Source of the DNA: Cellvibrio sp. KY-YJ-3
Lineage (GTDB): Bacteria > Pseudomonadota > Gammaproteobacteria > Pseudomonadales > Cellvibrionaceae
Direction of reading: 5' to 3'
Length of the DNA: 64,000 nt
Assembly (NCBI RefSeq): GCF_008806955.1
Contig: NZ_CP031727.1
Coordinates: forward strand, 2,246,001 to 2,310,000
The number at the start of each line of letters is the position of its first letter. Position 1 is the first letter of the stretch. Both the position numbers and the translations under genes were made by a program. Positions 1-14,264 of this stretch are shown piece by piece. Below the pieces are notes generated by a model. That model was given only the letters and a program-made list of their open reading frames with translations. It was not told where the DNA came from and searched no databases.

Positions 1-462
1 GCTACTTTTGCCCCTGTGATTAATGGTGGCCTGGGGGCGAGTGGGGTGATGGTGGGAACCACTAACTATGAACGGTTCTTGTATGCCGCACAAAGTGCGA
101 TGGATGCGGGTGATCCAGTCAATTATATGGAAACTCTGGCCCAGCTGGGTGTACCGGTATTGGTGCAGCAAATTAATAATGATCTGGTGATTCCCAACAA
201 TGCAGCCGGTGCGCCGCTTGCGGGAACCCAGGCCATGGCATCGCTACTCAATACCACGCAGCTGGGGCTAGGCTCAACTCAACTGGGGCGCGGTTATGTT
301 AAACACACGGCTGGTGGCCATGCATCATTACTGCGTCCGGAGGGAGGTGCACCACAGGTTACCGCTGAGCTGCAAACCCAGGTTGTCACGTTTGTGTTGA
401 ATAATGGTGGTGTGGCGGTCGGCGGAGGTGCGCCCGGTAATATCGAGTTGCCTGCAAACTAA
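1..462 (+). CDS. Secreted lipase-like protein, 3' end only
   Basis: The reading frame is open from base 1 and ends at the TAA at 460-462, so only the last 153 residues are present. The visible part looks like the end of an alpha/beta-hydrolase: a strand with an acidic residue after it (LVQQINNDLVIP) and then a GGHASLL motif that would carry the catalytic histidine. The tail is Gly/Val/Ala-rich. This resembles the C-terminus of Pla-1/cef-type extracellular lipases of gammaproteobacteria. The nucleophile Ser and the signal peptide would lie to the left of the window, so the call rests on the His region and general composition. A different alpha/beta-hydrolase is possible. A terminator follows directly. 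Confidence 0.5.
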   Translation, partial: ATFAPVINGGLGASGVMVGTTNYERFLYAAQSAMDAGDPVNYMETLAQLGVPVLVQQINNDLVIPNNAAGAPLAGTQAMASLLNTTQLGLGSTQLGRGYVKHTAGGHASLLRPEGGAPQVTAELQTQVVTFVLNNGGVAVGGGAPGNIELPAN

Positions 463-481
463 GAAACATTCCAGTGAAAAA

Positions 482-508
482 AGCCCGCTGCCACGCGGGC
501 TTTTTTTA
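482..508 (+). terminator. Intrinsic terminator after the lipase-like gene
   Basis: Arms AGCCCGC and GCGGGCT with a short loop, followed by a run of T. It lies 20 bases after the lipase stop and separates that gene from the sigma54 activator. Confidence 0.85.
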
Positions 509-566
509 CAGCGTCATAACCCTCTGTCATTCAACAATCTCTCAACACTGTTGGAAGGAATCAGTC

Positions 567-1592
567 ATGGAATCTATGCAGGATTCTCTGACCCGCTGTT
601 CAGGGGTAGGGGATAACTATTACACCGATGATCAACCTTTGGCCCGTATTTGTGGTCACTCATCTGCCATAGTGGAGGTGCGCCAGCAGATCAGGCTTTG
701 TGCGGCGGCGGATACCTCGGTGCTGGTCTATGGTGAAACTGGCACAGGCAAGGAATTGGTGGCGCGCGCGCTGCACGCGTTAAGCCGCAGGGCGCAACGC
801 CCCTTTGTTGCCATTAATTGCGGCGCCTACCCCAATGAATTGATTTTGAATGAACTCTTCGGCCACGAGCGCGGCGCATTTACCGGTGCCCAAGCGCGGC
901 AAGAGGGGCTGATTAGTCAGGCGCAGGGCGGTACTTTGTTTCTGGATGAGATCGACAGCCTGTCACCTGGGGCGCAGGTATTGCTGCTCAGGTTTATCCA
1001 AGAGCGCTGTTTTCGCCCGCTCGGCTCCGGTCGTGAATGCCATGCCGATGTGCGCATCATTGCCGCCACTCACTGCGATTTGCAGGAGCGTATAAGCGAG
1101 GGTCGTTTTCGCGACGATTTGTTTTACCGCCTTGATGTATTGCGCATCCAGCTGCCGCCGCTGCGCGAGCGCTGTGAGGACATTCTGCCGCTTGCCCATA
1201 GCTACTGGCGTAAGGTAGCTGAACAGCATCAGCTTTACGCTAACCCGCTCACCCCCGCATTTGAGCACTGGCTGCAGGCTTATCACTGGCCGGGCAATGT
1301 GCGTGAGCTGGAAAATGTAATTACCCGCTGGGTGTTTGGACAAAAGCCTGCCTCCATGACCAGCGCCAGCGATCTGGGTGTTGATTATTTGCAACCCTAT
1401 TATGGGTCGGCTGCCGGTACCTTGGCGCTGACCTTCAGTCAGGCGAAAGAGCTGGTAATCAGCCAATTTGAAAAACACTACATAGCATCCATCCTCGCCA
1501 TTACCAAAGGCAATATCACCCAGGCTGCCCTCAAGGCGGGCAAAGAGCGCCGCGCTTTTGGCCGCCTCGCGCGCAAACACAATCTGGTTTAA
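567..1592 (+). CDS. Sigma54-dependent transcriptional activator without receiver domain
   Basis: A 341-residue bacterial enhancer-binding protein. After a short N-terminal stretch of about 25 residues comes the AAA+ domain: Walker A GETGTGKE at 56-63, the sigma54-contacting loop GAFTGA at 103-108, Walker B TLFLDEI at 123-129, and an arginine-finger region (GRFRDDLFYRL). A short Fis-type helix-turn-helix lies at about 295-341. No receiver, GAF or PAS sensor is present, so activity is probably set by synthesis or by a partner protein, as in PspF-like activators (inference). I chose ATG 567 because GGAAGGA precedes it; the longer frame from 474 would start inside the upstream terminator. It stands directly before the sigma54 promoter and inverted repeats at 1711-1908 and is the obvious candidate to control the downstream operon. 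Confidence 0.93.
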   Translation: MESMQDSLTRCSGVGDNYYTDDQPLARICGHSSAIVEVRQQIRLCAAADTSVLVYGETGTGKELVARALHALSRRAQRPFVAINCGAYPNELILNELFGHERGAFTGAQARQEGLISQAQGGTLFLDEIDSLSPGAQVLLLRFIQERCFRPLGSGRECHADVRIIAATHCDLQERISEGRFRDDLFYRLDVLRIQLPPLRERCEDILPLAHSYWRKVAEQHQLYANPLTPAFEHWLQAYHWPGNVRELENVITRWVFGQKPASMTSASDLGVDYLQPYYGSAAGTLALTFSQAKELVISQFEKHYIASILAITKGNITQAALKAGKERRAFGRLARKHNLV

Positions 1593-1614
1593 TTCCTCTC
1601 TGCGTTTTGTTCTG

Positions 1615-1649
1615 CACGCGCGCTTGTTACTGGCGCGCGCTGTTTTTTT
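1615..1649 (+). terminator. Intrinsic terminator after the sigma54 activator
   Basis: GCGCGC arms at 1618-1623 and 1635-1640 followed by TGTTTTTTTA. It isolates the activator transcript from the operon that starts near 1919. Confidence 0.75.
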
Positions 1650-1710
1650 ATGTGTGCAAAAAACCACGCCCCCTTCTGATTGTTCGGGTGGGTCAGAGCT
1701 GTCCCGAGTG

Positions 1711-1725
1711 GGGTATAGCTTACCC
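1711..1725 (+). promoter_or_regulatory. Inverted repeat, candidate activator site 1
   Basis: GGGTA-TAGCT-TACCC. It has the same half-site type (GGRTAW) as the two repeats 55-90 bases downstream. Its position about 170-190 bases before the sigma54 promoter fits an upstream activating sequence. This is inferred from sequence only. Confidence 0.45.
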
Positions 1726-1776
1726 GCCAGATTTGGAAAATTTACGCGTCAATTGGCGCCGTAATTTTTGTTATGG

Positions 1777-1798
1777 CGGATAAATAAAAAATTATCCG
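1777..1798 (+). promoter_or_regulatory. Inverted repeat, candidate activator site 2
   Basis: CGGATAA at 1777-1783 pairs with TTATCCG at 1792-1798: perfect seven-base arms and an eight-base AT spacer. It abuts the next repeat, so the two probably form a paired site for a hexameric activator. Confidence 0.55.
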
Positions 1799-1814
1799 GG
1801 TAAAAAATTACCCG
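1797..1814 (+). promoter_or_regulatory. Inverted repeat, candidate activator site 3
   Basis: CGGGTAA at 1797-1803 pairs with TTACCCG at 1808-1814 around AAAA. Its centre is about 90 bases upstream of the -24/-12 element, a usual distance for enhancer-binding protein sites. There is no T-run after it, so it is not a terminator. Confidence 0.55.
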
Positions 1815-1892
1815 CTGTCACCTCGGTATTTTTTTTATGGATTGCGCTGCAACACGCGCCAGCCGTGATCTTGAGTCGCCTATTGAAAACGC

Positions 1893-1908
1893 TGGTATGG
1901 GCATTGCA
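1893..1908 (+). promoter_or_regulatory. Sigma54 (-24/-12) promoter
   Basis: TGGTATGGGCATTGCA matches the RpoN consensus TGGCACG-N4-TTGCW at TGG, A, G and all of TTGCA. GG (1894-1895) and GC (1906-1907) are separated by exactly ten bases, as sigma54 requires. The predicted start of transcription is about 1919, leaving a leader of roughly 63 bases before the protease ATG at 1982. The gene immediately upstream encodes a GAFTGA activator, which strengthens the call. Confidence 0.8.
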
Positions 1909-1981
1909 ATGTCGTTTTCCATGACGCGCAAAGCGGGTGTCGATTGCTGTTGCACAACTAAAAAAATATTCAGGGAATGCT

Positions 1982-3298
1982 ATGAAAGATCATGTCCGTA
2001 TCAAATTGCGCGCGGCCTTGCCGATAGAGCAATTGCCTCACTGGCAAATGTTGCTGGCCGATCGCCGTTTGGAACGCGAGACCTTCCACCCTGATATCGA
2101 TCGCCTGTTTCGTGAATTTAATCTTCCCTTTCTTGCCACCCGCGAATACGCCGCCGCTCAGGGCGAATGGTCGGCCGATGAAATTGCTGCAGGTTTGAAT
2201 CGCATTTATCGCCTGGTATTAACCCGCTCCGGGCGTGTGCCTCAAGCGTTAATCCAGCGCTTGCGTTTGTTGCCTGCGGTGGAACAGGCCAGCGCTACCG
2301 ATGTCGGCGAGATGGAATTGAATCCACCCACGGCGGCGCTGAGTGTTAATACCGATAAAACCTCGCGCGAATTAATTTATTTGGATGAAGCACACCGCTA
2401 CTCGCGCGGCCACGGGCAAATAAAAATTGCGGTGTTGGATACCGGTGTGGACTTGCAACACCCCGAGCTGGTGGAGCGCCTGCAACCCGGGTTTGATTTT
2501 GTGAATATTCTCGATGGTGCTGCCGAATTTATTGGCGACTTTCTTGAAGCCGATGAAGTGGCCACCGACGAAGTGGGGCACGGCACTCATGTGGCCGGAA
2601 TTATCGCGGGCAAGGGGCGCGCTATGCCGGTGGGGGTTGCGCCTGAATGCCAAATTATTCCCGTGCGGGTGCTTGCGGCGATGGAAAAGAACGGCAAAAA
2701 AATGGGCGCTGGTCTGCTGGAGAATATTAATGCCGGAGTGAAATTCGCGGTGGATCAGGGCGCCGATGTGATCAATATGTCGCTCGGGGTAAAACACAGT
2801 GGTGGCGGTTTGCCCCACCAGGAAGTCATTGATTATGCCCGGCGCAAGGGCGTCACTATTGTTGCTGCTTCGGGCAATGATGGTCAGCAGGAAATGTATT
2901 ACCCCGGTGCCTTTGACTCGGTAATTGCCGTGGGCGCCATGGATGCACAGCGCGAGGTGGCCGACTTTTCCACTTACGGCGAGCAGGTATCGCTAATTGC
3001 CCCCGGGGTGGATGTGTACAGCAGTTATTTGGATAAGGGCTACGCCTTTTCCACTGGCACCTCACACGCTGCCCCCTTTGTGGCGGGTGCGGTGGCGCTA
3101 TTGAAATCCTACGCGCGCGGGCGCGGCAAAAGACTTAGTGACAATCAAGTTAAACATCTGCTCAAACACACCAGCGACAAGCTGGATCGCTCGTTCAAAC
3201 ATCGCAAAGCGGGTTATGGCTGTTTAAATCTCGCCGATGCAATGCGTTATCTCGATTTTAAGCTCAGTGAAGGGAGACTGCGTCATGACTACCGCTAA
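1982..3298 (+). CDS. Subtilisin-like serine protease (S8 family), no signal peptide
   Basis: A 438-residue S8 peptidase with a complete catalytic set: Asp153 in VLDTGVDL, His203 in GHGTHVAG, oxyanion Asn299 in AASGNDG and nucleophile Ser361 in GTSHAAPF. Residues 1 to about 125 form a helical N-terminal extension that could act as a prodomain or docking part; it is not a secretion signal, so the enzyme is probably cytoplasmic. ATG 1982 is preceded by CAGGGAA; an in-frame GTG at 1937 has no ribosome site. It is the first gene after the sigma54 promoter, and its last 14 bases overlap the next gene, so the two are probably translationally coupled. Likely role: processing or activating other products of this operon, or cleaving an outside target. 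The substrate is unknown. Confidence 0.93.
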   Translation: MKDHVRIKLRAALPIEQLPHWQMLLADRRLERETFHPDIDRLFREFNLPFLATREYAAAQGEWSADEIAAGLNRIYRLVLTRSGRVPQALIQRLRLLPAVEQASATDVGEMELNPPTAALSVNTDKTSRELIYLDEAHRYSRGHGQIKIAVLDTGVDLQHPELVERLQPGFDFVNILDGAAEFIGDFLEADEVATDEVGHGTHVAGIIAGKGRAMPVGVAPECQIIPVRVLAAMEKNGKKMGAGLLENINAGVKFAVDQGADVINMSLGVKHSGGGLPHQEVIDYARRKGVTIVAASGNDGQQEMYYPGAFDSVIAVGAMDAQREVADFSTYGEQVSLIAPGVDVYSSYLDKGYAFSTGTSHAAPFVAGAVALLKSYARGRGKRLSDNQVKHLLKHTSDKLDRSFKHRKAGYGCLNLADAMRYLDFKLSEGRLRHDYR

Positions 3299-3896
3299 TG
3301 AAAAGAAAGAAACCGAAGTTGTAATTGAAAAAGAGGCTGTGGCCGAACCGCGTAAAACTGCCAAAACGGTGGCTATTAAAAATTTGGATTTTGGCGATTT
3401 AAAACCGGTGTGGAACAAGATGCTTGACAGCAATCGCCCGGATGCCGAAACCGGTTTGTTAAAAGTGACAGCGCGGGTGGGTTCGCTGGATCCATTAGCG
3501 CAACAAGCGCTGGCAAAAATGCGCAAAAAATTTCCCTACACCAGCAGCAATGTGCGCAAGATTATTGCAAATCGCGGTATTACCACAGAGTTGGATCGCG
3601 TGTTGAAACGCCTGAATGGTTTGCGTATTAGCGAGAATAAACGCCTGGTATTAGCGGCAGTTTACCCCGCGTTGCTGGCCAGATTATTGGAAGGCGATGA
3701 CATGAGTGTGGAGGAGATCAAGGACGATAAAGGTTTTGTGAATGCGATTTTATTTGAGCTGGAACGCAAAGATGGGCCGCTGGATATTTTCTCCCAGGAG
3801 TTAGTGAAATTGGTGGGCGCAAAACACCGCATCAATATCACTGAAGACAATGTGCTGCGCGATTTAATTGCGCATCAGGTGCGTGTCAGTTTGTAA
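3285..3896 (+). CDS. Unrecognised 203-residue helical protein of the protease operon
   Basis: I do not recognise a family. Residues 1-30 are charged (many Lys and Glu) and probably flexible; the rest looks helical, with a basic patch (KMRKKFPYTSSNVRKI) and an Arg/Leu-rich segment near the middle. There is no signal peptide or membrane helix. ATG 3285 was chosen over the upstream frame starts because GAAGGGAGA lies before it and it overlaps the protease gene by 14 bases. Such tight coupling to a protease suggests a partner or adaptor, but this is inference from position only. Confidence 0.75.
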   Translation: MTTANEKKETEVVIEKEAVAEPRKTAKTVAIKNLDFGDLKPVWNKMLDSNRPDAETGLLKVTARVGSLDPLAQQALAKMRKKFPYTSSNVRKIIANRGITTELDRVLKRLNGLRISENKRLVLAAVYPALLARLLEGDDMSVEEIKDDKGFVNAILFELERKDGPLDIFSQELVKLVGAKHRINITEDNVLRDLIAHQVRVSL

Positions 3897-3956
3897 CTGG
3901 CGGCAGTTAATTTTCACATTCTCGCCAACCATGCCGTTGCGAAAGGAAGTCAAATC

Positions 3957-5165
3957 ATGCCTAACAACGTAAAAATTAATTTGGCGCCGGGTGCGCTTGA
4001 ACCGGTCATATTAAAGCTGATCAGTCAGGTCAATGAAAAGGGCCAGCTACCGGCGCTATTGGAAATTTATATCGACCAGAGCGAGATTGAAAAATCCCGT
4101 TTCACTGACGCGGTAAAGATGGCGATGATCGATTATTTACTCGATCGCGGCATTCAAATTGATGATATTGAAAAGCTCAAGGACGGTGGTTACGACGAGC
4201 ATTTTGCCTTGGCGTACAACCATGCAATTGAAATCGCTAGCGGTGAAGATGACCCGCTCGATGCTGCCTGGCGGAAAGGTGGTGCACAAAATACTAGCCA
4301 GTGGGATTTTTCAGTTGACGATTTTGAAGGCATTGAAGAGCAGGGCATAGTTAAAGACAACATCCTTGCGGCCGGGGCACTGGATTACATTTACGAATTG
4401 GGCGAGCGGTTGGGAATATTTAAATTGGTGGATGCGCTGGTGCTCAATTGGGCCGCAGGCTCCATTGATGTGGTGGATGGCCCGGTAGCCGCGCGCTTGT
4501 ATCGCTATTGGAAACGCCGCGATGATCGCGCTTCGGAAGAAGAGCGCGGCATGGTATATCGCCGAGTGTTGAATAAAAGCGAAACCGAAGTGCTGGCGCG
4601 CATGGTGGTGAATGAACACTTTCCCAATTTGTGGCACAACCTGATGGCGGAAGTGGCCGAGTACATAGATAAAACCGAGCGGGTGGATGATGGTTTTAGC
4701 GAGACCTCACCGGTATCGCGCTCGCGTTTGTATCAGGCAACCCGTGAACTGCAATACAACCTTACAGAATTTTGTACCGGCATGGCCCATGTGCAAACCC
4801 GTGAATTTTATGCGCAGCTGCAAGAGTGCATGGAGATTTTAAAAGACCCGGATATCACCGCCTATTTTGGTGGTAACCGCCGCAAAAGTTTGTGGACGGT
4901 GATCGAGCGTTTATCCAAAGAGGAATTTGGCGCGGCGCCGAATATTGGCGCCCATCGTTCACTGGCGGTGGATGGCAACAAAATTTTCCAATGGGTCGCC
5001 AATTTTAATGAGGCCTCGGTGCGCCATGAAGATTTTCTGGCATTTGTGCAAGCGGCCGAAGCTTATATTTTGAATTTCACCAGCGTGGGTGACGAGGCGG
5101 GAATGGACGCCAGCGGCGACGAGGAAGAGTTGGAATTTGCCGATGATGACAGCGACGATTTTTAA
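3957..5165 (+). CDS. Unrecognised 402-residue protein with acidic tail
   Basis: No family recognised. The protein is predominantly helical and soluble. The last 20 or so residues are strongly acidic (EEELEFADDDSDDF), as in many proteins that bind a chaperone or a basic partner. A conserved-looking Trp/Tyr-rich middle (LYRYWKRRDDRASEEERG) suggests a folded core. GAAAGGAAG precedes ATG 3957. It is the third gene of the operon, 60 bases after the previous stop, with no terminator between. I infer a structural or scaffolding component, mainly because it is one of several non-enzymatic proteins sandwiched between the two proteases. Confidence 0.75.
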   Translation: MPNNVKINLAPGALEPVILKLISQVNEKGQLPALLEIYIDQSEIEKSRFTDAVKMAMIDYLLDRGIQIDDIEKLKDGGYDEHFALAYNHAIEIASGEDDPLDAAWRKGGAQNTSQWDFSVDDFEGIEEQGIVKDNILAAGALDYIYELGERLGIFKLVDALVLNWAAGSIDVVDGPVAARLYRYWKRRDDRASEEERGMVYRRVLNKSETEVLARMVVNEHFPNLWHNLMAEVAEYIDKTERVDDGFSETSPVSRSRLYQATRELQYNLTEFCTGMAHVQTREFYAQLQECMEILKDPDITAYFGGNRRKSLWTVIERLSKEEFGAAPNIGAHRSLAVDGNKIFQWVANFNEASVRHEDFLAFVQAAEAYILNFTSVGDEAGMDASGDEEELEFADDDSDDF

Positions 5166-5227
5166 TCGTCGCCACACACAAAATTGCTAACCCAAAATGC
5201 CTGTAACCGAGAAAGGAGTTCAGTCGC

Positions 5228-6316
5228 ATGAGTGAACAAGCCATCAAAGATCTTGCCCGCGAATACACCCGTCGCACACTCGCCCAATCGGCGACATTTC
5301 ATCAATTGGGGGTGGAGGATCAAAAGTCCCTCTACCTGGATGTGTATCGCCAAAATTACCAAAACCTCGCGCACAACACGGCTGATTATGTGCAGGCCAA
5401 AAACTTGCCAGTGGCAATGGCCGACTCCAAAGCGGGCGACATGATCAATGATAAACGCCACACCAACCAGCGCATTGACCAGGCGGGGGATCTGGCGGGC
5501 GGTTTTATCGATGAGGTGGATTTCCCCGGCTTTGTAAAAGACCTGCTCAAAGGGGTGTTCGACGCCAACCTGGAAGTGACTCTAGCGCAAATGGAGTCCT
5601 ATCAAAAGTTACTGAAAGCGGCCACCCAATCCATTTCCAAATTTATTAATTCCATTGATGACGCCGCCTCCTTTGGCTACCTCGCGGAAAATAATAGCGA
5701 TGAATTCGGGCTGGCATTTAGCGATGAAGAAAATGAAGACGGTTCGCGCAAATTGCAATTGACCGATGCCAGTGGTCAGCCCATGGATTTGGGCGACAAC
5801 CAGGTTAAAGCAAAAATTATGGATGCCAAAATCCAAATGGCCAAAGAGCAGCGCGCCATGTTGCGCGAAACTATTTTGATGGGCATCACCCGCTTGGTGG
5901 TGGAAAAAGGCAACGTTAAGGCATCGGTGTTATTCGACATTAAAGCCTCGGAACAGGTGCAAAAATCCGACAAGGCGGCAATCCAGGATCTGAAATCATC
6001 GAGCAATAGTGTCAGCGCCAGTGGCGGTTTGATCGGCTCCATTTTTGGCGGTCCCAAAGGTGGTCACACTTCCAGTCGGCGCACCAGCAAAATTTCGGTG
6101 TCGAGCGCCAAGAGTGTCGCCAGTACCGAATTGGCAGCGAAGGTCACGGGCTCGGTGGATATCACCTTCAAGTCGGATTATTTCAAACTGGACAACTTTG
6201 CAACCCTCTACCAAAACGGCGCCGATGGCGGTGCCCAGTTGGGACCAGGTCAGCAGGTAGTGCAACCTGCGCCCGCTGCAGCACCTGCCGCCGCGCCCGC
6301 CCTTGCCGGTAGGTAA
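5228..6316 (+). CDS. Unrecognised 362-residue protein, helical front and beta-rich rear
   Basis: No family recognised. Residues 1 to about 230 are helical, with an acidic stretch near 165 (SDEENEDGSRK). A beta-type strand pattern at about 235-250 and 310-335 (VKASVLFDIKASE, VTGSVDITFKSDYFKL) flanks a Ser/Gly-rich hinge that contains GGLIGSIFGG. The last 20 residues are an Ala/Pro tail. Strand pairs joined by a small glycine-rich hydrophobic segment occur in membrane-interacting proteins, but I cannot show that here. AAAGGAG precedes ATG 5228. It lies 62 bases after the previous gene and five before the next. Confidence 0.75.
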   Translation: MSEQAIKDLAREYTRRTLAQSATFHQLGVEDQKSLYLDVYRQNYQNLAHNTADYVQAKNLPVAMADSKAGDMINDKRHTNQRIDQAGDLAGGFIDEVDFPGFVKDLLKGVFDANLEVTLAQMESYQKLLKAATQSISKFINSIDDAASFGYLAENNSDEFGLAFSDEENEDGSRKLQLTDASGQPMDLGDNQVKAKIMDAKIQMAKEQRAMLRETILMGITRLVVEKGNVKASVLFDIKASEQVQKSDKAAIQDLKSSSNSVSASGGLIGSIFGGPKGGHTSSRRTSKISVSSAKSVASTELAAKVTGSVDITFKSDYFKLDNFATLYQNGADGGAQLGPGQQVVQPAPAAAPAAAPALAGR

Positions 6317-6321
6317 GGCTT

Positions 6322-8382
6322 ATGGCGCTGGCATTGGTTCTGGCTATAACACCCGAGCCAGAGGGGCTGCGCGTGAGTTTCGATATAGGTAAAAACCGCT
6401 ATTGGCGCTGGCAGTTAGGTGCCGAACCGGTTACCACCGGCAGTGGCTTGGCCAGTGTCGGTAGTGCGGGCGATAGCGGGGTGTTACGCGCGTCGCTGCA
6501 GGGGCCACTGCCACCGCAGAACTTTGGGCGCGGGGAATTCCTGCTGCCGTCGGCGCAACTCGGGCGCGAGCGACGTTTTATGCAGCTGCTGAGTTATCGC
6601 ACCGAAGAGGGCATGGGGCCGGCGTTGTCGGCGGTGGTAGAGCTGCCGCTCAGCCGATCGTCTGGGCAAATCGATCGCTCAGATGAACCGGGTGAGGATC
6701 TACCGTCGCCGATTTTGCCGTTGTCTTCACCCGTACAGCGATTGCCTCTTGCCGCTATGAGCCAGCTTGTTAAAAAGGATTCAACCATGACTGCTTCAGC
6801 CTTTTCTGCTTCTGCATTTTCGCCGGCCCTGAGCCAGGTAGATTCAGTACCTTTTAGCCTGCGCGAGCGTCCCTTGAGCGGCGCACTGTTTTCCGGCGCG
6901 GACATAGTGCGTGTGCTTATGCCCATGCTGCCCTCCCTGGCTCCGGCGATTAACAGCTTGATTAGCGGTGTGGCCCCAGTGGTAGGGCAGGTCACCAGCC
7001 AGTTGCTTACACCGGACAATATTCGCCAGTTGATGCAATTAATTACTGCCGCCACCGGCGGGGCTGCCACCACGGGGGCCGCGCCTGCGGTTGCTGCAAG
7101 TGGTGCGCGAACGGCGAGTTTATCTTATGCCCGTGCCAGTTCCCGCTACAGTGAAGCCAAGGTGGCACCAGCTTTGCTGGCGGCACTGCCAGCCCTTATG
7201 CCACTGCTGCAACAGGTGCTCTCGCCGCAAACCGTGCAGAGTATTGTCGAGGCGCCCCAGCGTATGACCGGGCAGATTATTAACGGCATTACCGATTTTG
7301 CCCGGCTCGGGCTGCAGGCCGACCAGCAGTTGAATGACCACCTGCGGGCACTGAACCCGGGGGTTGACGACCCCGCTTTGCATCAGCTGCTGGCGGGTAT
7401 GAGCCTGGGGCTGAGTAGCGCGCGCCAGCGCAATTACAAACGGGTGGCCAGCGTGCGCTTGAGTTTGGCCAGTGCACCCACCCAAGTACTGGTGGGGCGC
7501 ACCCAGGTGCTCTATCAACAGGGCCGCGATTGGCTCTTCCCCACCCAGCTGGAAACACCGGAAACCCTGAATGAGGCGGAACTGCTAGTGCAGGTCAAAC
7601 AGGCGGATAACCTGCGGGTGGTGCATGAAACTTCGGAGCGGATTGCCAGCGCTGGCAGCGGCCCACTGGAGCTAACCCCGCAGATCAGCGCCGCCGAGGG
7701 CGCCAAATTGCAGGCGGGCAAGGAACACATAGTGGTTGTCAGCCTGCTGTGGCGCAATCGCAAAGGCCAGCTGCGCGGCACCTCGGTGCAGCAGAGCATC
7801 GTGGTGATGGGCACCTGCCAGTTTGATCGCATTGAAGAGTCCAGCGAACTTATCCCACTGGCTGACCGCGAGTTATTCCGCGACTACTGGCACGAAGTCT
7901 GGAACCATGATTTTACCGGCGACAGCCGCCGCGTAGATCTGCACAGCCGCTATTACCTCAAGCTCAGCCCCGAGCGTCAGCGCAATGCCCGCACCGATAC
8001 CCAGCTCAAACGCCGCCAGGAGGGGCCACGCCAAACAATTAACCTGCGCGCTGGTTATGAGTTCAGTGTATTTGCCTTGAACCACCTGCTGGTGCGCTTG
8101 GCGCCGGACCAGCCGCCGCTCAATGACGAGTATCTGACCGCTATCGCTAGCAGCGAATTTGGCGAGCGCTTTAATCAGGCTGCGCAACATCAAGCCCAGC
8201 TGCGTGGTCGGCCGGGTGAGCGGGCATCGCTCTGGGTATTTCCGGTGATGAAACTGCAAACCCTGATTCTGGTGCGCGCCGGAGCAGTTGACGAAAACGG
8301 TGCAGTGGAGACTTTGAATGAGGAGTCAGTGATATTTCCTATTCCCGCCATGCTGCATTTTGTCGGAGTGAAGCAGTCATGA
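6322..8382 (+). CDS. Unrecognised 686-residue multidomain protein of the protease operon
   Basis: No family recognised. Residues 1-110 look like a beta-sandwich (FDIGKNRYWRWQLG; RRFMQLLSYRTEEG). A Ser/Pro linker follows to about 190. Two long hydrophobic helical stretches lie at about 190-260 (MPMLPSLAPAINSLISG) and 280-345 (LLAALPALMPLLQQVL); they are rich in Leu, Ala and Pro and look more like amphipathic or membrane-associating helices than classical transmembrane spans. The remaining 340 residues are mixed alpha/beta. No signal peptide. Its stop overlaps the next start as ATGA. The largest unrecognised part of the operon, it could be the scaffold or the membrane-contacting subunit (inference). 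Confidence 0.75.
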   Translation: MALALVLAITPEPEGLRVSFDIGKNRYWRWQLGAEPVTTGSGLASVGSAGDSGVLRASLQGPLPPQNFGRGEFLLPSAQLGRERRFMQLLSYRTEEGMGPALSAVVELPLSRSSGQIDRSDEPGEDLPSPILPLSSPVQRLPLAAMSQLVKKDSTMTASAFSASAFSPALSQVDSVPFSLRERPLSGALFSGADIVRVLMPMLPSLAPAINSLISGVAPVVGQVTSQLLTPDNIRQLMQLITAATGGAATTGAAPAVAASGARTASLSYARASSRYSEAKVAPALLAALPALMPLLQQVLSPQTVQSIVEAPQRMTGQIINGITDFARLGLQADQQLNDHLRALNPGVDDPALHQLLAGMSLGLSSARQRNYKRVASVRLSLASAPTQVLVGRTQVLYQQGRDWLFPTQLETPETLNEAELLVQVKQADNLRVVHETSERIASAGSGPLELTPQISAAEGAKLQAGKEHIVVVSLLWRNRKGQLRGTSVQQSIVVMGTCQFDRIEESSELIPLADRELFRDYWHEVWNHDFTGDSRRVDLHSRYYLKLSPERQRNARTDTQLKRRQEGPRQTINLRAGYEFSVFALNHLLVRLAPDQPPLNDEYLTAIASSEFGERFNQAAQHQAQLRGRPGERASLWVFPVMKLQTLILVRAGAVDENGAVETLNEESVIFPIPAMLHFVGVKQS

Positions 8383-8585
8383 ACCCAACAGCAGAGATAC
8401 TCGCCCGCGCTTTGAGCGACGTGGACATAAGCGCCCAATTTGAGGGTTTGGAAATAGTGTTTAGCGACAAGCAGGCACTCTTTCCGGTGGCGTTGGAAAA
8501 CGCTGAACCCGCGCGGCGCGCAGGGGCATTGCGACTGGTGCAGCCCGAAGCTTGCCGCTGCCATCCCGCAGGGAAAGCCCGATGA
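8379..8585 (+). CDS. Small 68-residue protein of the protease operon
   Basis: A short ORF held on both sides by ATGA stop-start overlaps (8379-8382 and 8582-8585), which is the best evidence that it is translated. The sequence has a helical first third (AEILARALSDVDISAQ) and a Cys-containing, Arg/Ala-rich end. No family recognised. It may be a small linker subunit or serve only to couple translation of the flanking genes. Confidence 0.6.
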   Translation: MNPTAEILARALSDVDISAQFEGLEIVFSDKQALFPVALENAEPARRAGALRLVQPEACRCHPAGKAR

Positions 8586-8950
8586 GCGCGCCAGATCCTT
8601 CAGTTGCCACCCTCGCTCCACTTGGCGGGGATGAGATTCATCCGGAGGATTACTTCCCCGGTCTGGCCGGTATGTTGGAGGATTTTTTGTCGCCTCAAAT
8701 TGAGCTGGCGCCCGACCCCTTCCAGCCGGATAGCTACTTGGGGCTGGTAGTGGAGCGGTTACACATTGAGCTGCCGATTGAACTGCAGCTGCTGCGTGCC
8801 AGCAGTGGTGAAGCGTTTATTGGCGCCACGCCGCCGAGTCAGTGGATCGAGACCTCGGTGGAGCCGGTGCTGCACCGTTTGGCACTTACCCTTGAGTTAG
8901 ATCCGGAGCCGGGCGATGACCATTCGCGAGACCAAACCCTGGAATCTTGA
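8582..8950 (+). CDS. Unrecognised 122-residue protein, beta-rich centre
   Basis: No family recognised. Acidic throughout. Residues 50-110 alternate hydrophobic and polar residues (VVERLHIELPIELQLL) in a way that suggests a small beta sheet, somewhat like the strand region at the start of the next protein. ATG 8582 overlaps the preceding stop; an upstream frame start at 8552 would overlap further and lacks a ribosome site. Its end overlaps the next gene by 35 bases, so these three small genes look like a co-translated unit. Confidence 0.7.
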   Translation: MSAPDPSVATLAPLGGDEIHPEDYFPGLAGMLEDFLSPQIELAPDPFQPDSYLGLVVERLHIELPIELQLLRASSGEAFIGATPPSQWIETSVEPVLHRLALTLELDPEPGDDHSRDQTLES

Positions 8951-9677
8951 GCAGTTTCTGGATTCGCTCATCCTGGAGCTGGATAAAGCGCAAGACACCC
9001 TCGCGCTCAAGGGGCTGACGCGCAAATTGACTTATACAGTCAAGGATGTGGCGTTGGACCTGAATGTTTTTCCGGTGATGGCCGATGGCAAGGTGCAATT
9101 TCAAATGGTGAAACCGGGTGAAGCCGGTGGTTCGCGCATCTCCTTCCAACTGGGCTCTATCACCGACCGGCAAATTCGCGAAAACGCCAATGAACCGCCC
9201 AACAAGGATGACCTGGAGCTGGACTTGTTGGAGGGCATGGATGAAGAGGTGAAAGCCAGTTTGCGCAAGGTGGGGGTGAGTTCAACCCGCGACCTGGAGC
9301 AGATGGACAAACGCAATGTGAATCTGGAAAAGGTGATCAAGGAAAAAACCGGTGGCGAAAAGAACCTGAATTATCAGGATCTGGCCAACATGATTAACAA
9401 AGTCCGGCGCAAAAAACTCTCACCCCAGCTGGCGCAAATGAGTGCCAGGGAGGAGGGCGATAGTGTGGAACTGACCCTGCGCGGGCGCAATTTTGTGGTG
9501 CAGCAAAGCGCCGATTTTCCGCGGGCGCTGGTCAACAACCAGCTGGCGGAAATAGTGCATGCCGATGCGGCAGAGCTGCGTTTGAAAGTGCCGCGTGCAC
9601 AGTTGCAGGCGGGTAATAACGCCCTGGCAATCGCACTCGACCCCTATGCGCTGGTGCAGCTGAATTTACAGTCCTGA
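8916..9677 (+). CDS. Trypco2-like / HhH-like / IPT-like protein
   Basis: A 253-residue protein with three apparent parts. Residues 10-85 (LEQFLDSLILELDKAQ, then TVKDVALDLNVFPV and KVQFQMVK) follow the pattern of the trypsin-co-occurring domain trypco2: one long helix, a V-x-x-V-x-L-x-L strand and a K-V-x-F strand. Residues about 105-165 (EEVKASLRKVGVSSTRDLEQ) resemble helix-hairpin-helix units that bind DNA or mediate assembly. Residues about 170-253 (LTLRGRNF ... LKVPRAQL ... GNNALAIAL) have the shape of an IPT/TIG Ig-like fold. Trypco domains are known from proposed NTPase/protease conflict systems (established knowledge); membership here is pattern recognition and should be tested by profile search. 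Confidence 0.65.
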   Translation: MTIRETKPWNLEQFLDSLILELDKAQDTLALKGLTRKLTYTVKDVALDLNVFPVMADGKVQFQMVKPGEAGGSRISFQLGSITDRQIRENANEPPNKDDLELDLLEGMDEEVKASLRKVGVSSTRDLEQMDKRNVNLEKVIKEKTGGEKNLNYQDLANMINKVRRKKLSPQLAQMSAREEGDSVELTLRGRNFVVQQSADFPRALVNNQLAEIVHADAAELRLKVPRAQLQAGNNALAIALDPYALVQLNLQS

Positions 9678-9710
9678 GGTTTGAGAAGGATCAACAGACA
9701 GGTGGCCTAG

Positions 9711-11039
9711 ATGACAAGAGCAGGAATACCAAAAGCAGGGATACCAAAACCAGGAACAACCCGCCCGGGAGCTACAGGATCAGGTTTGCGTTCGCTGGAG
9801 CAATCTCTGCAAACCGGTCGCAGCGGTACAGGTAAAACCAGGGGGAATGGTTTGGCGGTGGGATTATCGAGCGAAATTGCATTGGTGCGCGGCCAGCAGT
9901 ATCACCGGCCAAGCAGCCAATTGCGGGCGCTAGAGGAGCGGGTACTGGGTGCCACGCCCGCGCGCACCGCACCTGAGCCTTTAGCCCCTCCGGTTATTGA
10001 GCAGCATCGCCTTGCCCAGGAGCAAGTTAATCCGCTGTGGCTGACACCGGCACCGGTCGCACCGGCGCAGGGTTTTATGTTTTCGGCCTTTGCCGCCCAG
10101 GAATGGGTAGATGGCAGCTACAGCCCGGAATTATCGGCCCCCGATACTGGCCGCTTTCAGGTCGAGGCCTTTACCCATGCAGATCAATGGTCACCAGAGG
10201 CGCAAATTTCAGCGGCCTACAGCGCTGCGCCTGCGGGCGTCAGTTTGGCACCGGCGCCTGCCATTGCTCGCCCATCGAGTCCCCCCCAGTTTGGTCATCC
10301 CCAGCCCAGTCTTCCTCCAGTGCATGGGCGAGAGTCGTCCAGTCCATCGATTGTCCTGCCCGATGAGGAGAATTGGTTGGCCGAGGCGGAGCGGCCAACC
10401 ACTATCACCGCCGCCAGCCAGCAGTCGCTCAACCCCGGTTTGGCGCTGGCGAAAGACGATTTTGAGAAAGAGCTGGCCGCTATTCTGGGGCAAAACCAAG
10501 CGCCCGCTGACGCCAATCAGCCGGTTGCACCGGGCAGTACCCCAACGAGTACCCCGGCGGGTGTGGGTGGCAGTGCAGCGGCAGTGCCCACCCCGGCCAC
10601 TGCTCATCCCAACCACAATATCTTTGACCAGATGGGGTTGGGCATGAGTTACGCCAACAGTTTTGACCTGGGCAATGTCTCCATCGCCAAACGCCTGGAT
10701 CAACTGGAGCGGGAGCTGGCTGTGGCCAGCCCGACACCTGTTCCAGCGCAGCCAATCACCCCGCCGGAAACCACCCATTCACCCGGCATCAGGGAGCTGG
10801 AGTCGCCGTTTGTGGACCCGATGAGTCTGGATGAATTTGATCTGGTGGCGGAGCTGGCTGAAATTGGCGCGGAAGCGCCAGCAAAGCCCGCGACAGATCA
10901 ACAGGGCAACAATTCCGGTACTAACAATTCCGATATTAGCAATTCCGGCACTGTCACTTCGGTTGGTGACCTTACTGACAGTTCAACCCTTCCCAATCCC
11001 ATCAATCGCATGGAACTAGCAGGTGACAAGCATGAGTAA
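9711..11039 (+). CDS. Long disordered Pro/Ala/Ser-rich protein with one conserved-looking island
   Basis: A 442-residue low-complexity protein. It opens with short repeats (AGIPK, AGIPK, PGTTR, PGATG) and is rich in Pro, Ala, Thr and Gln almost throughout, ending in Asn/Ser-rich repeats (NNSGTNNSDISNSG). Ordered islands are few: one around 20-75, and one at about 305-337 (FDQMGLGMSYANSFDLG followed by KRLDQLERELA), which may be a short helical recognition motif. No signal peptide or membrane helix. AGGTGG precedes ATG 9711 by five bases. It overlaps the next gene by eight bases, so it is probably coupled to the double papain-fold protein and may be its substrate, tether or inhibitor (inference). 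Confidence 0.75.
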   Translation: MTRAGIPKAGIPKPGTTRPGATGSGLRSLEQSLQTGRSGTGKTRGNGLAVGLSSEIALVRGQQYHRPSSQLRALEERVLGATPARTAPEPLAPPVIEQHRLAQEQVNPLWLTPAPVAPAQGFMFSAFAAQEWVDGSYSPELSAPDTGRFQVEAFTHADQWSPEAQISAAYSAAPAGVSLAPAPAIARPSSPPQFGHPQPSLPPVHGRESSSPSIVLPDEENWLAEAERPTTITAASQQSLNPGLALAKDDFEKELAAILGQNQAPADANQPVAPGSTPTSTPAGVGGSAAAVPTPATAHPNHNIFDQMGLGMSYANSFDLGNVSIAKRLDQLERELAVASPTPVPAQPITPPETTHSPGIRELESPFVDPMSLDEFDLVAELAEIGAEAPAKPATDQQGNNSGTNNSDISNSGTVTSVGDLTDSSTLPNPINRMELAGDKHE

Positions 11040-13188
11040 TCGATTTTCAGAGCTGGAAAATACCCTGGTTCGGCGCCCTGCACGGCAGTCGACAACGGCA
11101 CCTAAAAAGGCTGCCAAAACCGCTCACCCGCGCCGTGCGCCACTAACGCCGCCAGGTGCTGCACCTGTGGCGCAGGGCTTGAGCGCCAAAGTCTCATCCT
11201 GGTCGCGTAGCAGCGCCCAGTCCTACAGCCCACGTGCCTTTGAGGCGGTTAACTATTCGGTGCCGGGCAATTTCTGGGTGCTGGCCCAGCCTTCGGGCAT
11301 GGCGTGTTGGGCAACGGTGTTCACCATGCTCAAAAGCTGGCGGGTGCAGCAGCAAAAAAATATTGAGCAGGCGCTAGCCACGGTCGGCCAGCGCTGGGTG
11401 GACATTTACAAGGCGGACACCGGTTTGCTGGGCGATGACAAACCCGAATTTCTGGCCGCTGCCGGTCTGCACCCGCAACCACCGCAGAGTTACAGCGTGC
11501 AGGGCTGGGAAAACCTGCTGCGCAATTACGGCCCTATTTGGGTTACAACCGATGAAGACCCAGGGCAACGTGCGGCAATTCATGCGCGCATCATCACCGG
11601 TATTCACGGCGACGGCACCCCGGAAAACACTAAATTCAAGATAGTCGATCCGGCGGGCGGGCGCCGCTACGAGGAATCCATTGCGGTATTTGTTCCCAAG
11701 TACGAAGAAGAAGTACGCCGCACCGGGTATATGCGGGTGCAAGTAGTGCATTGGCGCGCTGACGCGGTGAGTGAACAGCGCTCCCTGGCGCATAGCTATC
11801 GCAGCCGTGCATCGGCCAGTGATGCTCCCGTGGCCAGAAGTTTGGCTCTAGGCCGGGCGCTCAGTACGGCCCCCGATTTTACCGCCAAGCTGCAGGAGCT
11901 GCGTACCCAAGGGGTTCCCGAAGCCGAACTGCAAGCCTTCCTCGGCCAGCTTAATTTAACCCGTGCCCAAGCCTACCCCGGTGCCATGAGCGGTGGACGC
12001 ACCGAGGTTCACCTGCCCGGCGGTTATAGCCTGTCGGGTTGGAAAGGTGAGCTACTGGTGGCCGCGATCATGGCGGGGCTTGCCTCAGTGCCCGTCGCGG
12101 GTACCGCGTTGGCAGCGCTTATCCCGCTGCTGCGCGCTGCTGCCAACCGCTACAACGTCACTATAGGTTTAGGGCCAGCAGTGACTGGTGGTGTGGCTGT
12201 GGGTGCAGGCTTTGGCTACGGCATCATGTTTGCGCCCGGTAATCAGGTGGGCTTTTACGGCACCCTGTCCGGTGTGGTTGGTGCGATTGTCTCCATTAGC
12301 GCCACTATGCAGGTGACCATTATTCACGGCGGCCCCAGCCTGTTTAGCGGTGCTGCAGTCGCCGTGGGAATGACTGCCGGGGTGGATGCACCGGTTGGCC
12401 CTACCGGTGGTGTGCACGCTTTGATGAGTGGCGGCCGTTTTATTGGGGTGACGTTCGAGCTGGGTGTTTCTGCTGGCCTATCGCCCATTGAGGCCTACGC
12501 CCAATTTCAGTACACCGCGACCAGTATGGCGCTGGCGCGGCAGGCCTATGCCTTTGCCGAGGAAATCCCGCTCTCGCCTGCCAATGGGGGCCAGTCTATT
12601 GATGCCAGTGCCTTGCGGATTGGCGATATTTTGTTGTCGCGGGCCAGTGGCGTGGTCTCGCGTGCTATCCGCACAGTAAGCGATGCACCGGTCAGCCATG
12701 CCTCGGTTTATATTGGCGGTGGGCAGGTGGTAGAAGCGCTGGCGAATGGTGTGGTGCTCAACCAGTTGGAAGATTCTGTTGGTTCCAACGAAGTTGTGGT
12801 GGCCTTCCGCTACCCCAACCTCACCAGCGAGCAAGAACTGCGCATTCGCGATTTTGTCGGCCAGCATTTGGGCACTGGCTATAACTACTGGGGCATAGTC
12901 CGTCAGGCGCCATTCAGTGTTGATCGCCGTATTTGTGAGCGGCTGCCTGATGGTATGCGCCAGCGTTGCACCAGCGGTATGGCGCGCATCTTTCTCGGGC
13001 GCGGGGATACAGATCGCTTCTTCTGTTCACAGTTAGTGGTCGCGGCTTACCAACATGCCGGTGTGCCCCTGACTTCTGCCGACCCGCGTTGGGTGAGCCC
13101 CGGCGACTTGGCTCGTATGAGGGAGGATGCAGTACCCGCCTTTACCATCACCCATCCACTGCAGTATGTGGGGCATTTAAAAGCCTGA
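11032..13188 (+). CDS. Protein with two papain-like domains: C39/C70-like N-terminus and permuted NlpC/P60 C-terminus
   Basis: A 718-residue protein. After a basic Pro-rich leader of about 75 residues comes a papain-like domain: Cys92 in QPSGMACWATVF, His184 in AAIHARIITGI, then KIVDPAGG as the likely Asp/Asn site. This resembles C39 or AvrRpt2 (C70)-type folds. Residues about 320-500 are Gly/Ala/Val-rich and hydrophobic (LVAAIMAGLASVPVAGTALA and following), possibly membrane-inserting. The C-terminal part has His556 in VSHASVYIG and Cys665 in FFCSQLVVAAYQ, with His before Cys, as in the permuted YiiX/NlpC-P60 family. No signal peptide. ATG 11032 follows AGCAGGTGA and overlaps the previous stop. 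It is the last gene of the operon. Candidate effector or second processing enzyme. Confidence 0.8.
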   Translation: MSNRFSELENTLVRRPARQSTTAPKKAAKTAHPRRAPLTPPGAAPVAQGLSAKVSSWSRSSAQSYSPRAFEAVNYSVPGNFWVLAQPSGMACWATVFTMLKSWRVQQQKNIEQALATVGQRWVDIYKADTGLLGDDKPEFLAAAGLHPQPPQSYSVQGWENLLRNYGPIWVTTDEDPGQRAAIHARIITGIHGDGTPENTKFKIVDPAGGRRYEESIAVFVPKYEEEVRRTGYMRVQVVHWRADAVSEQRSLAHSYRSRASASDAPVARSLALGRALSTAPDFTAKLQELRTQGVPEAELQAFLGQLNLTRAQAYPGAMSGGRTEVHLPGGYSLSGWKGELLVAAIMAGLASVPVAGTALAALIPLLRAAANRYNVTIGLGPAVTGGVAVGAGFGYGIMFAPGNQVGFYGTLSGVVGAIVSISATMQVTIIHGGPSLFSGAAVAVGMTAGVDAPVGPTGGVHALMSGGRFIGVTFELGVSAGLSPIEAYAQFQYTATSMALARQAYAFAEEIPLSPANGGQSIDASALRIGDILLSRASGVVSRAIRTVSDAPVSHASVYIGGGQVVEALANGVVLNQLEDSVGSNEVVVAFRYPNLTSEQELRIRDFVGQHLGTGYNYWGIVRQAPFSVDRRICERLPDGMRQRCTSGMARIFLGRGDTDRFFCSQLVVAAYQHAGVPLTSADPRWVSPGDLARMREDAVPAFTITHPLQYVGHLKA

Positions 13189-13219
13189 TACTGGTGCGAC
13201 TTTTGGTTAAATCACAACA

Positions 13220-13247
13220 AGCCCGATGTCTGCCGTCGGGCTTTTTT
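13220..13247 (+). terminator. Terminator at the end of the protease operon
   Basis: GCCCGA and TCGGGC arms at 13221-13226 and 13236-13241, followed by TTTTTTG. It is the first clear terminator after 1649, which supports one transcript for the ten genes between. Confidence 0.85.
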
Positions 13248-13334
13248 GTTTTAACGGGAGAAAATCTTGTACTCGGCAGGCTTTTTGGCAATGATGCCGC
13301 CATGTTTTCCATCATTCCCGCCTGAGAAGTATTC

Positions 13335-14255
13335 ATGACCCCACGCAATTACCTCTATCTGTTAAAAAAGTACGACGAATACCAAGCGCAAATTGAGCGG
13401 CTGTTGGAGTCGATTGTGACTTCACTGGCTCCAGCCAAAATGGATACCTCCCATGATCATCTCAACACCGTGGTAAAACGGCTGCATGAGTCTTATCCCT
13501 TTGTTGAATTGCTTTATTGTATTAACGATAAGGGCGCGCAAATTACCGAATCCGCCGCGTCACCCACCGTGCCGGACCCCAAACGACGTGAGCCCGGTTT
13601 GGGGTCGGATCGCAGCAATCGTGTGTATTACACCCGCGCCAGTGAAAATGTTGCAGCGGCAACGGTTACCCAACCCTATCTTTCCAGCGCCACTCATCAG
13701 CTCGCCATCTCGGCGGTACAACGGTTTATCGATAACAATGGCAATACCTGTTATTTGGTGATCAATTTTAATTTGGAAAAACTCATCACCTTTTTGAATG
13801 GCGATAGTTTGCGCCGCATAGTGCACCCTTTCTTTCAAGTGGTTTACGGCATTATCGGTGTGATGTTGGTAATCGTTTCCTCTCTACTGCTCTATTCAGC
13901 GGGCACATCGTTATTTGATATGGTTTATGAACACACCAATACCGCCACCCAGGCATTCCAATCGGTAATTCTGGTGACCTTGGGCTTGGCGATTTTTGAT
14001 TTGGGTAAAACGATTCTGGAAGAGGAAGTACTGCTGCACAAAGACATTCATCACACCGGATCAACACGCCGTACCATCAGTCGGTTTATGTCGGCGATTG
14101 TCATTGCGGTCTCCATTGAATCGCTGTTGTTGATGTTTAAATCCCTGCTGGGTGATGCCACACATCTCAATTCCGCGGTATTTATGTTGATCGCCGCGGT
14201 AGCGCTGCTGGTGGGTTTAGGTGCTTACCTCCGGCTCACTAAAGACCAGGAATAA
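13335..14255 (+). CDS. Membrane protein with PDC/CACHE-like sensor region
   Basis: A 306-residue protein. The first 160 residues resemble a PDC-type sensor fold (YPFVELLYCINDKGAQITES ... RVYYTRASEN ... AISAVQRFIDNNGN). Four hydrophobic segments follow at about 166-190, 207-228, 250-270 and 277-300. There is no histidine kinase, GGDEF or methyl-accepting domain after them, so output is unclear. The sensor part precedes the first membrane helix without a signal peptide, so its side of the membrane is uncertain. The next gene, radA, starts nine bases after the stop, so the two are probably cotranscribed. ATG 13335 is preceded by GAGAAG. Confidence 0.7.
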   Translation: MTPRNYLYLLKKYDEYQAQIERLLESIVTSLAPAKMDTSHDHLNTVVKRLHESYPFVELLYCINDKGAQITESAASPTVPDPKRREPGLGSDRSNRVYYTRASENVAAATVTQPYLSSATHQLAISAVQRFIDNNGNTCYLVINFNLEKLITFLNGDSLRRIVHPFFQVVYGIIGVMLVIVSSLLLYSAGTSLFDMVYEHTNTATQAFQSVILVTLGLAIFDLGKTILEEEVLLHKDIHHTGSTRRTISRFMSAIVIAVSIESLLLMFKSLLGDATHLNSAVFMLIAAVALLVGLGAYLRLTKDQE

Positions 14256-14264
14256 GGAACGCTC

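Follow-up and report, generated by a model that had tools for sequence, protein, structure and literature searches.

Positions 567-13188 of a 64,000-base stretch of the Cellvibrio sp. KY-YJ-3 genome (hereafter the window, corresponding to positions 2246001-2310000 of the 4.49-Mb single-contig genome) contain a cassette of eleven plus-strand genes, a sigma54 activator followed by ten others, which we designate A to K. The cassette is inserted in its genome, and its core gene order is conserved in distant bacteria. Two of its genes share an N-terminal motif, one of them carries variable toxin-type domains in other loci, and a candidate sigma54-type promoter precedes gene B. We interpret the cassette, with moderate confidence, as a horizontally acquired, self-contained toxin-handling system, in which a sigma54-switched protein assembly would load or deploy tagged payloads. 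The core protein families and the motif are what is new, the enzyme domains being of known kinds. The cassette was not found described in the open-licence literature, which is weak evidence of novelty.

Gene layout and proposed sigma54-type control

The genes overlap or are separated by short gaps, and the sole large gap is a regulatory gap of 389 bases between A and B. The start codons of A-K are our choice. For the family scans (Pfam, NCBIfam, and PHROGs), C, H, and K were taken from earlier in-frame starts, and G was left out. The main features of the cassette are listed below in window coordinates.

463-13334, no strand: inserted segment; blastn matches to six genus relatives end at 454-462 and restart at 13335 in five of the six
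567-1592, plus: A, sigma54 activator; AAA+ core, Pfam Sigma54_activat E 5.8e-66, with a sub-threshold Fis-type helix-turn-helix match
1617-1639, plus: terminator-like hairpin after A, from the terminator scan
1893-1908, plus: candidate -24/-12 sigma54-type promoter TGGTATGGGCATTGCA, of the form GG-N10-GC, with 10 of 12 consensus positions, 89 bases before B
1982-3298, plus: B, S8 (subtilisin-type) protease; Pfam Peptidase_S8 4.2e-54, present in every related locus annotated
3285-3896, plus: C, function unassigned; its position is held by other genes in cyanobacteria
3957-5165, plus: D, core protein without a family; found in all 12 type-I and the two type-II loci
5228-6316, plus: E, core protein without a family; 4 and 5 paralogs in the two type-II loci
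6322-8382, plus: F, type-I core protein; a beta domain is predicted at 1-111 and a beta-rich part at 370-682, with low confidence for the middle (112-369)
8379-8585, plus: G, small protein of 68 aa, absent from the family-scan input
8582-8950, plus: H, small protein of 122 aa without a family; 11 of 12 type-I loci
8916-9677, plus: I, core protein; in relatives only, sub-threshold matches to Trypco2 (N-terminus) and TIG (C-terminus)
9711-11039, plus: J, protein of low complexity carrying two tag-like motifs
11032-13188, plus: K, effector-slot protein; Peptidase_C70 3.3e-40 and Peptidase_C92 1.6e-8
13219-13243, plus: terminator-like hairpin with a T run at the operon end, strong in the terminator scan

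Weaker terminator-like matches also occur inside the operon, and single matches of this kind prove little, because 33 were found in positions 1-15000 versus 19.3 expected. Comparison with Ch67 and HdN1, two related loci described below, gave proportions of nonsynonymous differences (pN) of 0.10-0.40 and of synonymous differences (pS) of 0.63-0.86 for A-F, I, and J (A was compared with Ch67 only, and G, H, and K were not included). Since pN is far below pS, these eight are maintained genes under purifying selection.

The first-pass annotation, made from the DNA letters alone, had proposed a sigma54 activator with ten same-strand genes under sigma54 control. The gene coordinates and the Pfam match of A bear out the first of these points, and a comparison of upstream regions supports the second. 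The -24/-12 consensus served for scoring, and sites of the form GG-N10-GC with at least 9 of 12 positions were found upstream of the first gene in all five loci with an activator (the window, Ch67, HdN1, Burkholderia, and G047), those beyond the window lying in L016, L024, L015, and G047. No such sites were found in the upstream regions of the four activator-less loci (Hahella, Tolypothrix, Geitlerinema, and Calothrix). The searched stretches differ in length, and the background of GG-N10-GC sites in the window is 0.27 per kb per strand. The pairing of activator and promoter is uncertain in HdN1, where the upstream activator is separated from the cluster by about 6 kb containing genes on the opposite strand. 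No receiver or other sensor domain was found in A by the Pfam search. Ahead of the candidate promoter, the gap contains short inverted repeats rich in A and T at positions 1741-1830 of the window (one example surrounds TTATCCGGGTAAAAAATTACCCG); these could be activator sites.

Conserved order and subtypes

A scan of the collection with an alignment of D, which used two peptide patterns and was non-exhaustive, yielded nine relatives from 166 candidate stretches: the gammaproteobacterium Ch67, Hahella sp. HN01, gamma proteobacterium HdN1, five cyanobacteria, and an Eisenbacteria metagenome-assembled genome. Together with the window, a Tolypothrix locus, and the genome G1075, these make up the 12 loci of type I. 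The order S8-D-E-F-I is kept in all 12, which belong to Gammaproteobacteria, Cyanobacteria, and Eisenbacteria, and H was recognized in 11 of them, Eisenbacteria being the exception. The place between the S8 protease gene and D is taken by C in Gammaproteobacteria and by different genes in cyanobacteria, in Calothrix by one for a PG_binding_1 protein; in Eisenbacteria a C-like sequence is fused to D.

Subtype II is represented by the Burkholderia pyrrocinia plasmid pBPJTT and by G047, with four and five E paralogs, respectively. Both loci also contain two D proteins, an S8 protease, I, and their own sigma54 activator, in a different gene order. H of the window can be aligned with an 87-aa Burkholderia protein, yet the pair gives no blastp match. 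The Burkholderia locus includes a DUF3467 protein (3.1e-10; L015:10602-11009) between the activator and a large protein of 1254 aa described below, and in G047 a divergent gene beyond the subtype-II activator encodes a DUF2272 protein (1.1e-16; L013:8361-9665), possibly another effector. A strongly diverged, reduced cyanobacterial locus in G1152 (L040:5727-12962), perhaps a third subtype, contains relatives of E and I, an S8-like gene, and a gene for a 740-aa protein of unassigned function.

Insertion and distribution

Segment 463-13334 fills the space between two genes that adjoin each other in same-genus genomes. In five of six such genomes its left flank (ending near 458) and its right flank (from 13335) lie about 150-230 bases apart, with nothing of the segment matched between them; the sixth (G018) matched the right flank only. 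The right-hand neighbor gene (13335-14255) is present in 20 of 21 genus genomes. No integrase was seen in the segment, and no clear target duplication was seen.

Within 145 related genomes, D was found in three: its own, G116 (another family, same order; 78% identical), and G047 (same family; 29%). It is absent from the 20 other same-genus genomes listed. Profile searches with E recovered the own genome alone from 369 genomes of the class (E up to 1e-8) and again from 398 of the phylum (1e-6), and 3 of 292 genomes in a cyanobacterial sample, centre genome included; these rates are lower bounds, because few candidates were scored per genome. Among 72,556 plasmid records, four match E and five match D. 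The insertion and distribution mark the segment as one mobile, horizontally acquired unit. The first-pass description of a self-contained unit agrees with the clean insertion and conserved order, and the recurrence that it proposed to look for was found, the same core set occurring elsewhere. The outcomes that it named as refuting did not arise, the homologs not being scattered single genes.

The Tolypothrix cluster is plasmid-borne. On this plasmid of Tolypothrix sp. PCC 7712 (L014:1-22124), the cluster is bracketed by two oppositely oriented copies of the IS701-family transposase WP_096621593.1, one directly after I, where J and K are missing, and the other about 9 kb before the cluster. A weak D relative (23% identical, E 9e-10) without an annotated gene was also observed in Paraburkholderia sp. 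PGU19 (NZ_AP023181.1, 672340-673116).

The variable effector slot

Gene K combines two papain-like domains with a hydrophobic region.

11254-11706, plus: Peptidase_C70 (AvrRpt2-type papain-like) domain, Pfam 3.3e-40
12046-12144, plus: hydrophobic stretch, residues 339-371 (Kyte-Doolittle)
12616-12888, plus: Peptidase_C92 (YaeF/YiiX permuted papain) domain, core match in Pfam and NCBIfam

A second, marginal hydrophobic segment covers residues 412-431, whereas no 19-residue stretch of A-J reaches a Kyte-Doolittle value of 1.6 (F peaks at 1.59). The NCBIfam YaeF match of K has an E-value of 4e-63 but, at 213 bits, falls under the cut-off of 279, and in PHROGs the C92 part matches a moron family (9.7e-25).

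Comparison of K between lineages revealed a constant N-terminal part and an exchanged remainder. The window and HdN1 proteins are 58% identical over residues 1-287; past that point the former has the hydrophobic segment and C92 and the latter a second C70, which is the only part beyond 287 to give a match, and this match is back to the first domain. The K proteins of Ch67 and Hahella have two C70 stretches each. Three Calothrix-type genomes encode Ntox11 at the same position (E 1.9e-28, 9.8e-29, and 3.1e-27), and G1075 encodes EndoU_bacteria there (5e-6, above the cut-off). Altogether, a toxin-type or catalytic domain is present in 8 of the 10 type-I loci with K (C70 in four, Ntox11 in three, EndoU in one). 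Of the remaining two of the 12 type-I loci, the Eisenbacteria contig stops in a J-like gene and Tolypothrix has a transposase in place of K. In subtype II, the 1254-residue Burkholderia protein combines Amidase_2, C92, and C70, and G047 has one C70 protein.

In the window there is no gene of at least 80 aa lying wholly between K and the terminator, and the cyanobacterial genes after K have no family match. No known export leader or secretion partner was found in the Pfam scans, which covered only part of the known leaders. The PHROGs match of B is to a protease family (2.5e-69), and no signal peptide was seen in B. The S8 protease and the papain-like protein appear to differ in role, the former being a constant core gene and the papain-like domains occupying the variable slot. 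This partition refines the earlier suggestion that proteases serve as maturation or effector parts.

A motif shared by J and K

The J and K proteins have a short motif, approximately N-R-L-x-x-L-E, at or soon after the start, with two copies in many J proteins. The first-pass annotation had overlooked it. Its occurrences in the window are as follows.

9780-9809, plus: tag-like motif 1 of J, SGLRSLEQSL, off the strict pattern at two positions
9915-9944, plus: tag-like motif 2 of J, SQLRALEERV, off the strict pattern at two positions
11038-11067, plus: tag motif of K, NRFSELENTL

The strict pattern [NRG][RSN][LFI]xxL[ED] within the first 110 residues was matched by 20 of 22 J/K-type proteins (including one extra Calothrix gene after K) versus 160 of 22,000 shuffled N-termini (0.7%); this is strong but not independent evidence, because the pattern was drawn from the same proteins and close relatives were multiply counted. 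A second Calothrix gene after K (Cal_n2) has no motif. The 13 loci contain 214 open reading frames with 150 or more residues, of which 16 matched, and all 16 are J/K-type by position.

Families and structures of the core proteins

No match above the cut-off was obtained in Pfam or NCBIfam for C-F and H-J, and nothing convincing in PHROGs; for most companion proteins the PDB sequences searched gave nothing convincing either. None of the scanned operon proteins has a significant phage or extracellular contractile injection system (eCIS) structural match in Pfam or PHROGs; the only matches of this kind connect F with a tape-measure family (E 0.078) and K with a minor-tail family (0.041). With PADLOC (PADLOC-DB 2.0.0; ten proteins, G left out), C-F and H-K gave no match, and the matches were confined to A (the RtcR AAA part and two weak PDC-M37B) and B (subtilase and IetS fragments). 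The first-pass annotation had matched the set to no type VI secretion system (T6SS), eCIS, toxin-antitoxin, or named phage-defense system; in the genes scanned there was indeed no convincing match to T6SS, phage-tail, or PADLOC systems. Its "trypco2-like" protein is weakly supported: the Burkholderia relative of I has a weak Trypco2 match (PF19631, E 0.0098, 16.6 bits versus a cut-off of 24.2), and the window protein has none in Pfam. The predicted structure of F showed generic folds only.

Comparison of E with DUF2589 (PF11655) gave an hhalign E-value of 0.66 with a profile built on two DUF2589 sequences only, and a DUF2589 search of the own genome found no match, as was also the case for the control genomes. 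Elsewhere, in L047/L048 (G270:C30), two DUF2589 proteins are accompanied by a third protein of 272 aa, recalling the layout of E paralogs in subtype II; a profile comparison of this cluster with E was negative.

Proposed mechanism and alternatives

In the toxin-handling system that we favor, activator A would turn on one long operon, and D, E, F, H, and I may form a soluble protein assembly; its putative repeated subunit is E, of which subtype II has as many as five copies. The J/K motif, extended to N-R-L-x-x-L-E-x-x-L, is read as a probable loading or docking tag for this assembly because it is restricted to J/K-type genes. K would be the payload, its tagged N-terminus constant and its enzymatic part swapped between lineages, and the predicted payload range comprises the C70 papain-like protease, C92 papain-like amidase, Ntox11, and EndoU nuclease, with an amidase added in subtype II (no tag). 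The S8 protease might mature the assembly or trim the tag. Once released, or on contact, the payloads could affect a target cell, or a trigger could set them to work within the host cell. We propose more tentatively, as a possibility in which our confidence is low, that D, E, F, H, and I constitute a machine of a new class, one that packages toxins in a particle or delivers effectors, loaded through N-R-L-x-x-L-E, matured by the S8 protease, encoded in a single sigma54 operon, unrelated to phage tails and known secretion systems, and moved between phyla with payload exchange. What matters here is that the core order is kept across distant lineages while travelling with exchangeable toxin-type enzymes. 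If the core proteins load or deliver these enzymes, the cassette would use protein weapons by a route of a new kind, for which the tag would offer a direct handle, any tagged gene beside the cassette becoming a predicted payload.

Several observations weigh against a toxin-handling assembly. No recognized assembly, secretion, or membrane domain was found in the core proteins, and the predicted structure of E is poor (mean predicted local distance difference test score 48.9) and unfit for a structure search. Regarding the tag, the motif was drawn from proteins later counted, some of them close relatives; the J proteins of the window (two positions off) and Eisenbacteria (one) fail the strict pattern; the subtype II open reading frames scanned have no tag; and in the own genome a DNA pattern for the motif gave 17 matches, close to the 11 of the backward pattern control. 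Regarding the payload, the Geitlerinema and Baaleninema K proteins have sub-threshold matches only, and neither an immunity gene nor a membrane component or export part was identified.

An unlikely competitor is an intracellular abortive-infection defense, in which the assembly keeps proteases and nucleases inactive and frees them upon sensing of phage or stress, with the S8 protease as the trigger. It would agree with sigma54 activation, with the patchy, horizontally moved distribution, with the fact that no signal peptide or export machinery was seen, and with the weak Trypco2-like domain, a domain described in PMC7159879 beside trypsin-like peptidases in conflict systems. It is disfavored by the PADLOC results, which are limited to the fragments in A and B given above, by the PG_binding_1 and Amidase_2 domains of some loci, which suggest an envelope or extracellular target, and by Ntox11, which PMC3482391 lists with an export route.

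Quite improbable is a host cell-envelope program, that is, regulated remodeling of peptidoglycan or lipids by papain-like amidases without any toxins. The amidase and PG-binding domains of the Burkholderia and Calothrix loci speak for it, as does the C92/YaeF part of K, for which 86 of 102 matching records in the plasmid collection are from Escherichia, but EndoU and Ntox11 in the same slot misfit envelope remodeling, and a presence in just 3 of 145 relatives with a clean insertion misfits a housekeeping role.

We regard it as least probable of all that the cassette supplies effectors to a known contractile system, T6SS or eCIS, located elsewhere in each genome. In its favor, sheath searches of eight carrier genomes, own included, which were positive in control genomes, found VipB in three carriers and a phage-sheath match in five (Ch67 has both), and Ntox11 is listed with the Photorhabdus virulence cassette (PVC) in the same source. 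Against it, the own genome has neither sheath, a phage-sheath match is missing in Hahella and HdN1, and VipB is missing in the four tested cyanobacteria, so that neither sheath family explains the set, because neither covers all eight carriers.

Comparison with known systems

Like eCIS and PVC, the cassette is operon-encoded and, in some loci, includes a toxin domain, Ntox11, that is listed as PVC-associated in PMC3482391. The cargo toxins of eCIS have N-terminal loading signals, according to PMC11495950, to which the shared J/K motif, with its putative loading role, can be compared. In contrast to these systems, the cassette genes scanned contain no sheath, tube, baseplate, or spike families; its only AAA+ protein is a transcription activator, the own genome has no phage-sheath match, and an S8 protease and a sigma54 activator are included. 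T6SS differs as well, VipB not being found in the own genome.

The type VII secretion system (T7SS) mycosin family TIGR03921 is the best NCBIfam match of the S8 protease, but its 218 bits are below the cut-off of 278.75, and no other T7SS family was matched. With the Psp operon the cassette shares a sigma54 activator without a receiver domain; however, the PspF models stayed below their cut-offs, with 244.8 of 443.55 and 202.4 of 529 bits, and there was no PspA match among the scanned proteins. The Trypco conflict systems (Kaur et al. 2020) resemble it in the possible Trypco2-like domain beside a peptidase, whereas the operon has no vWA or trypsin match and Trypco2 stays sub-threshold, as does the MoxR-type AAA match of A.

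In polymorphic toxin systems (Zhang et al. 2012, PMC3482391), toxin domains are exchanged behind a shared N-terminus, and K has this architecture; the domains in common include Ntox11 and EndoU, the latter placed among polymorphic toxins by that source. Unlike them, the cassette shows no known export leader in the Pfam scans and no recognized immunity gene, and it has a large conserved set of companions without a family. With its exchangeable toxins behind a common N-terminus the cassette resembles a polymorphic-toxin or eCIS cargo system, but it lacks the tested defining features of eCIS, T6SS, mycosin-type T7SS, and Psp.

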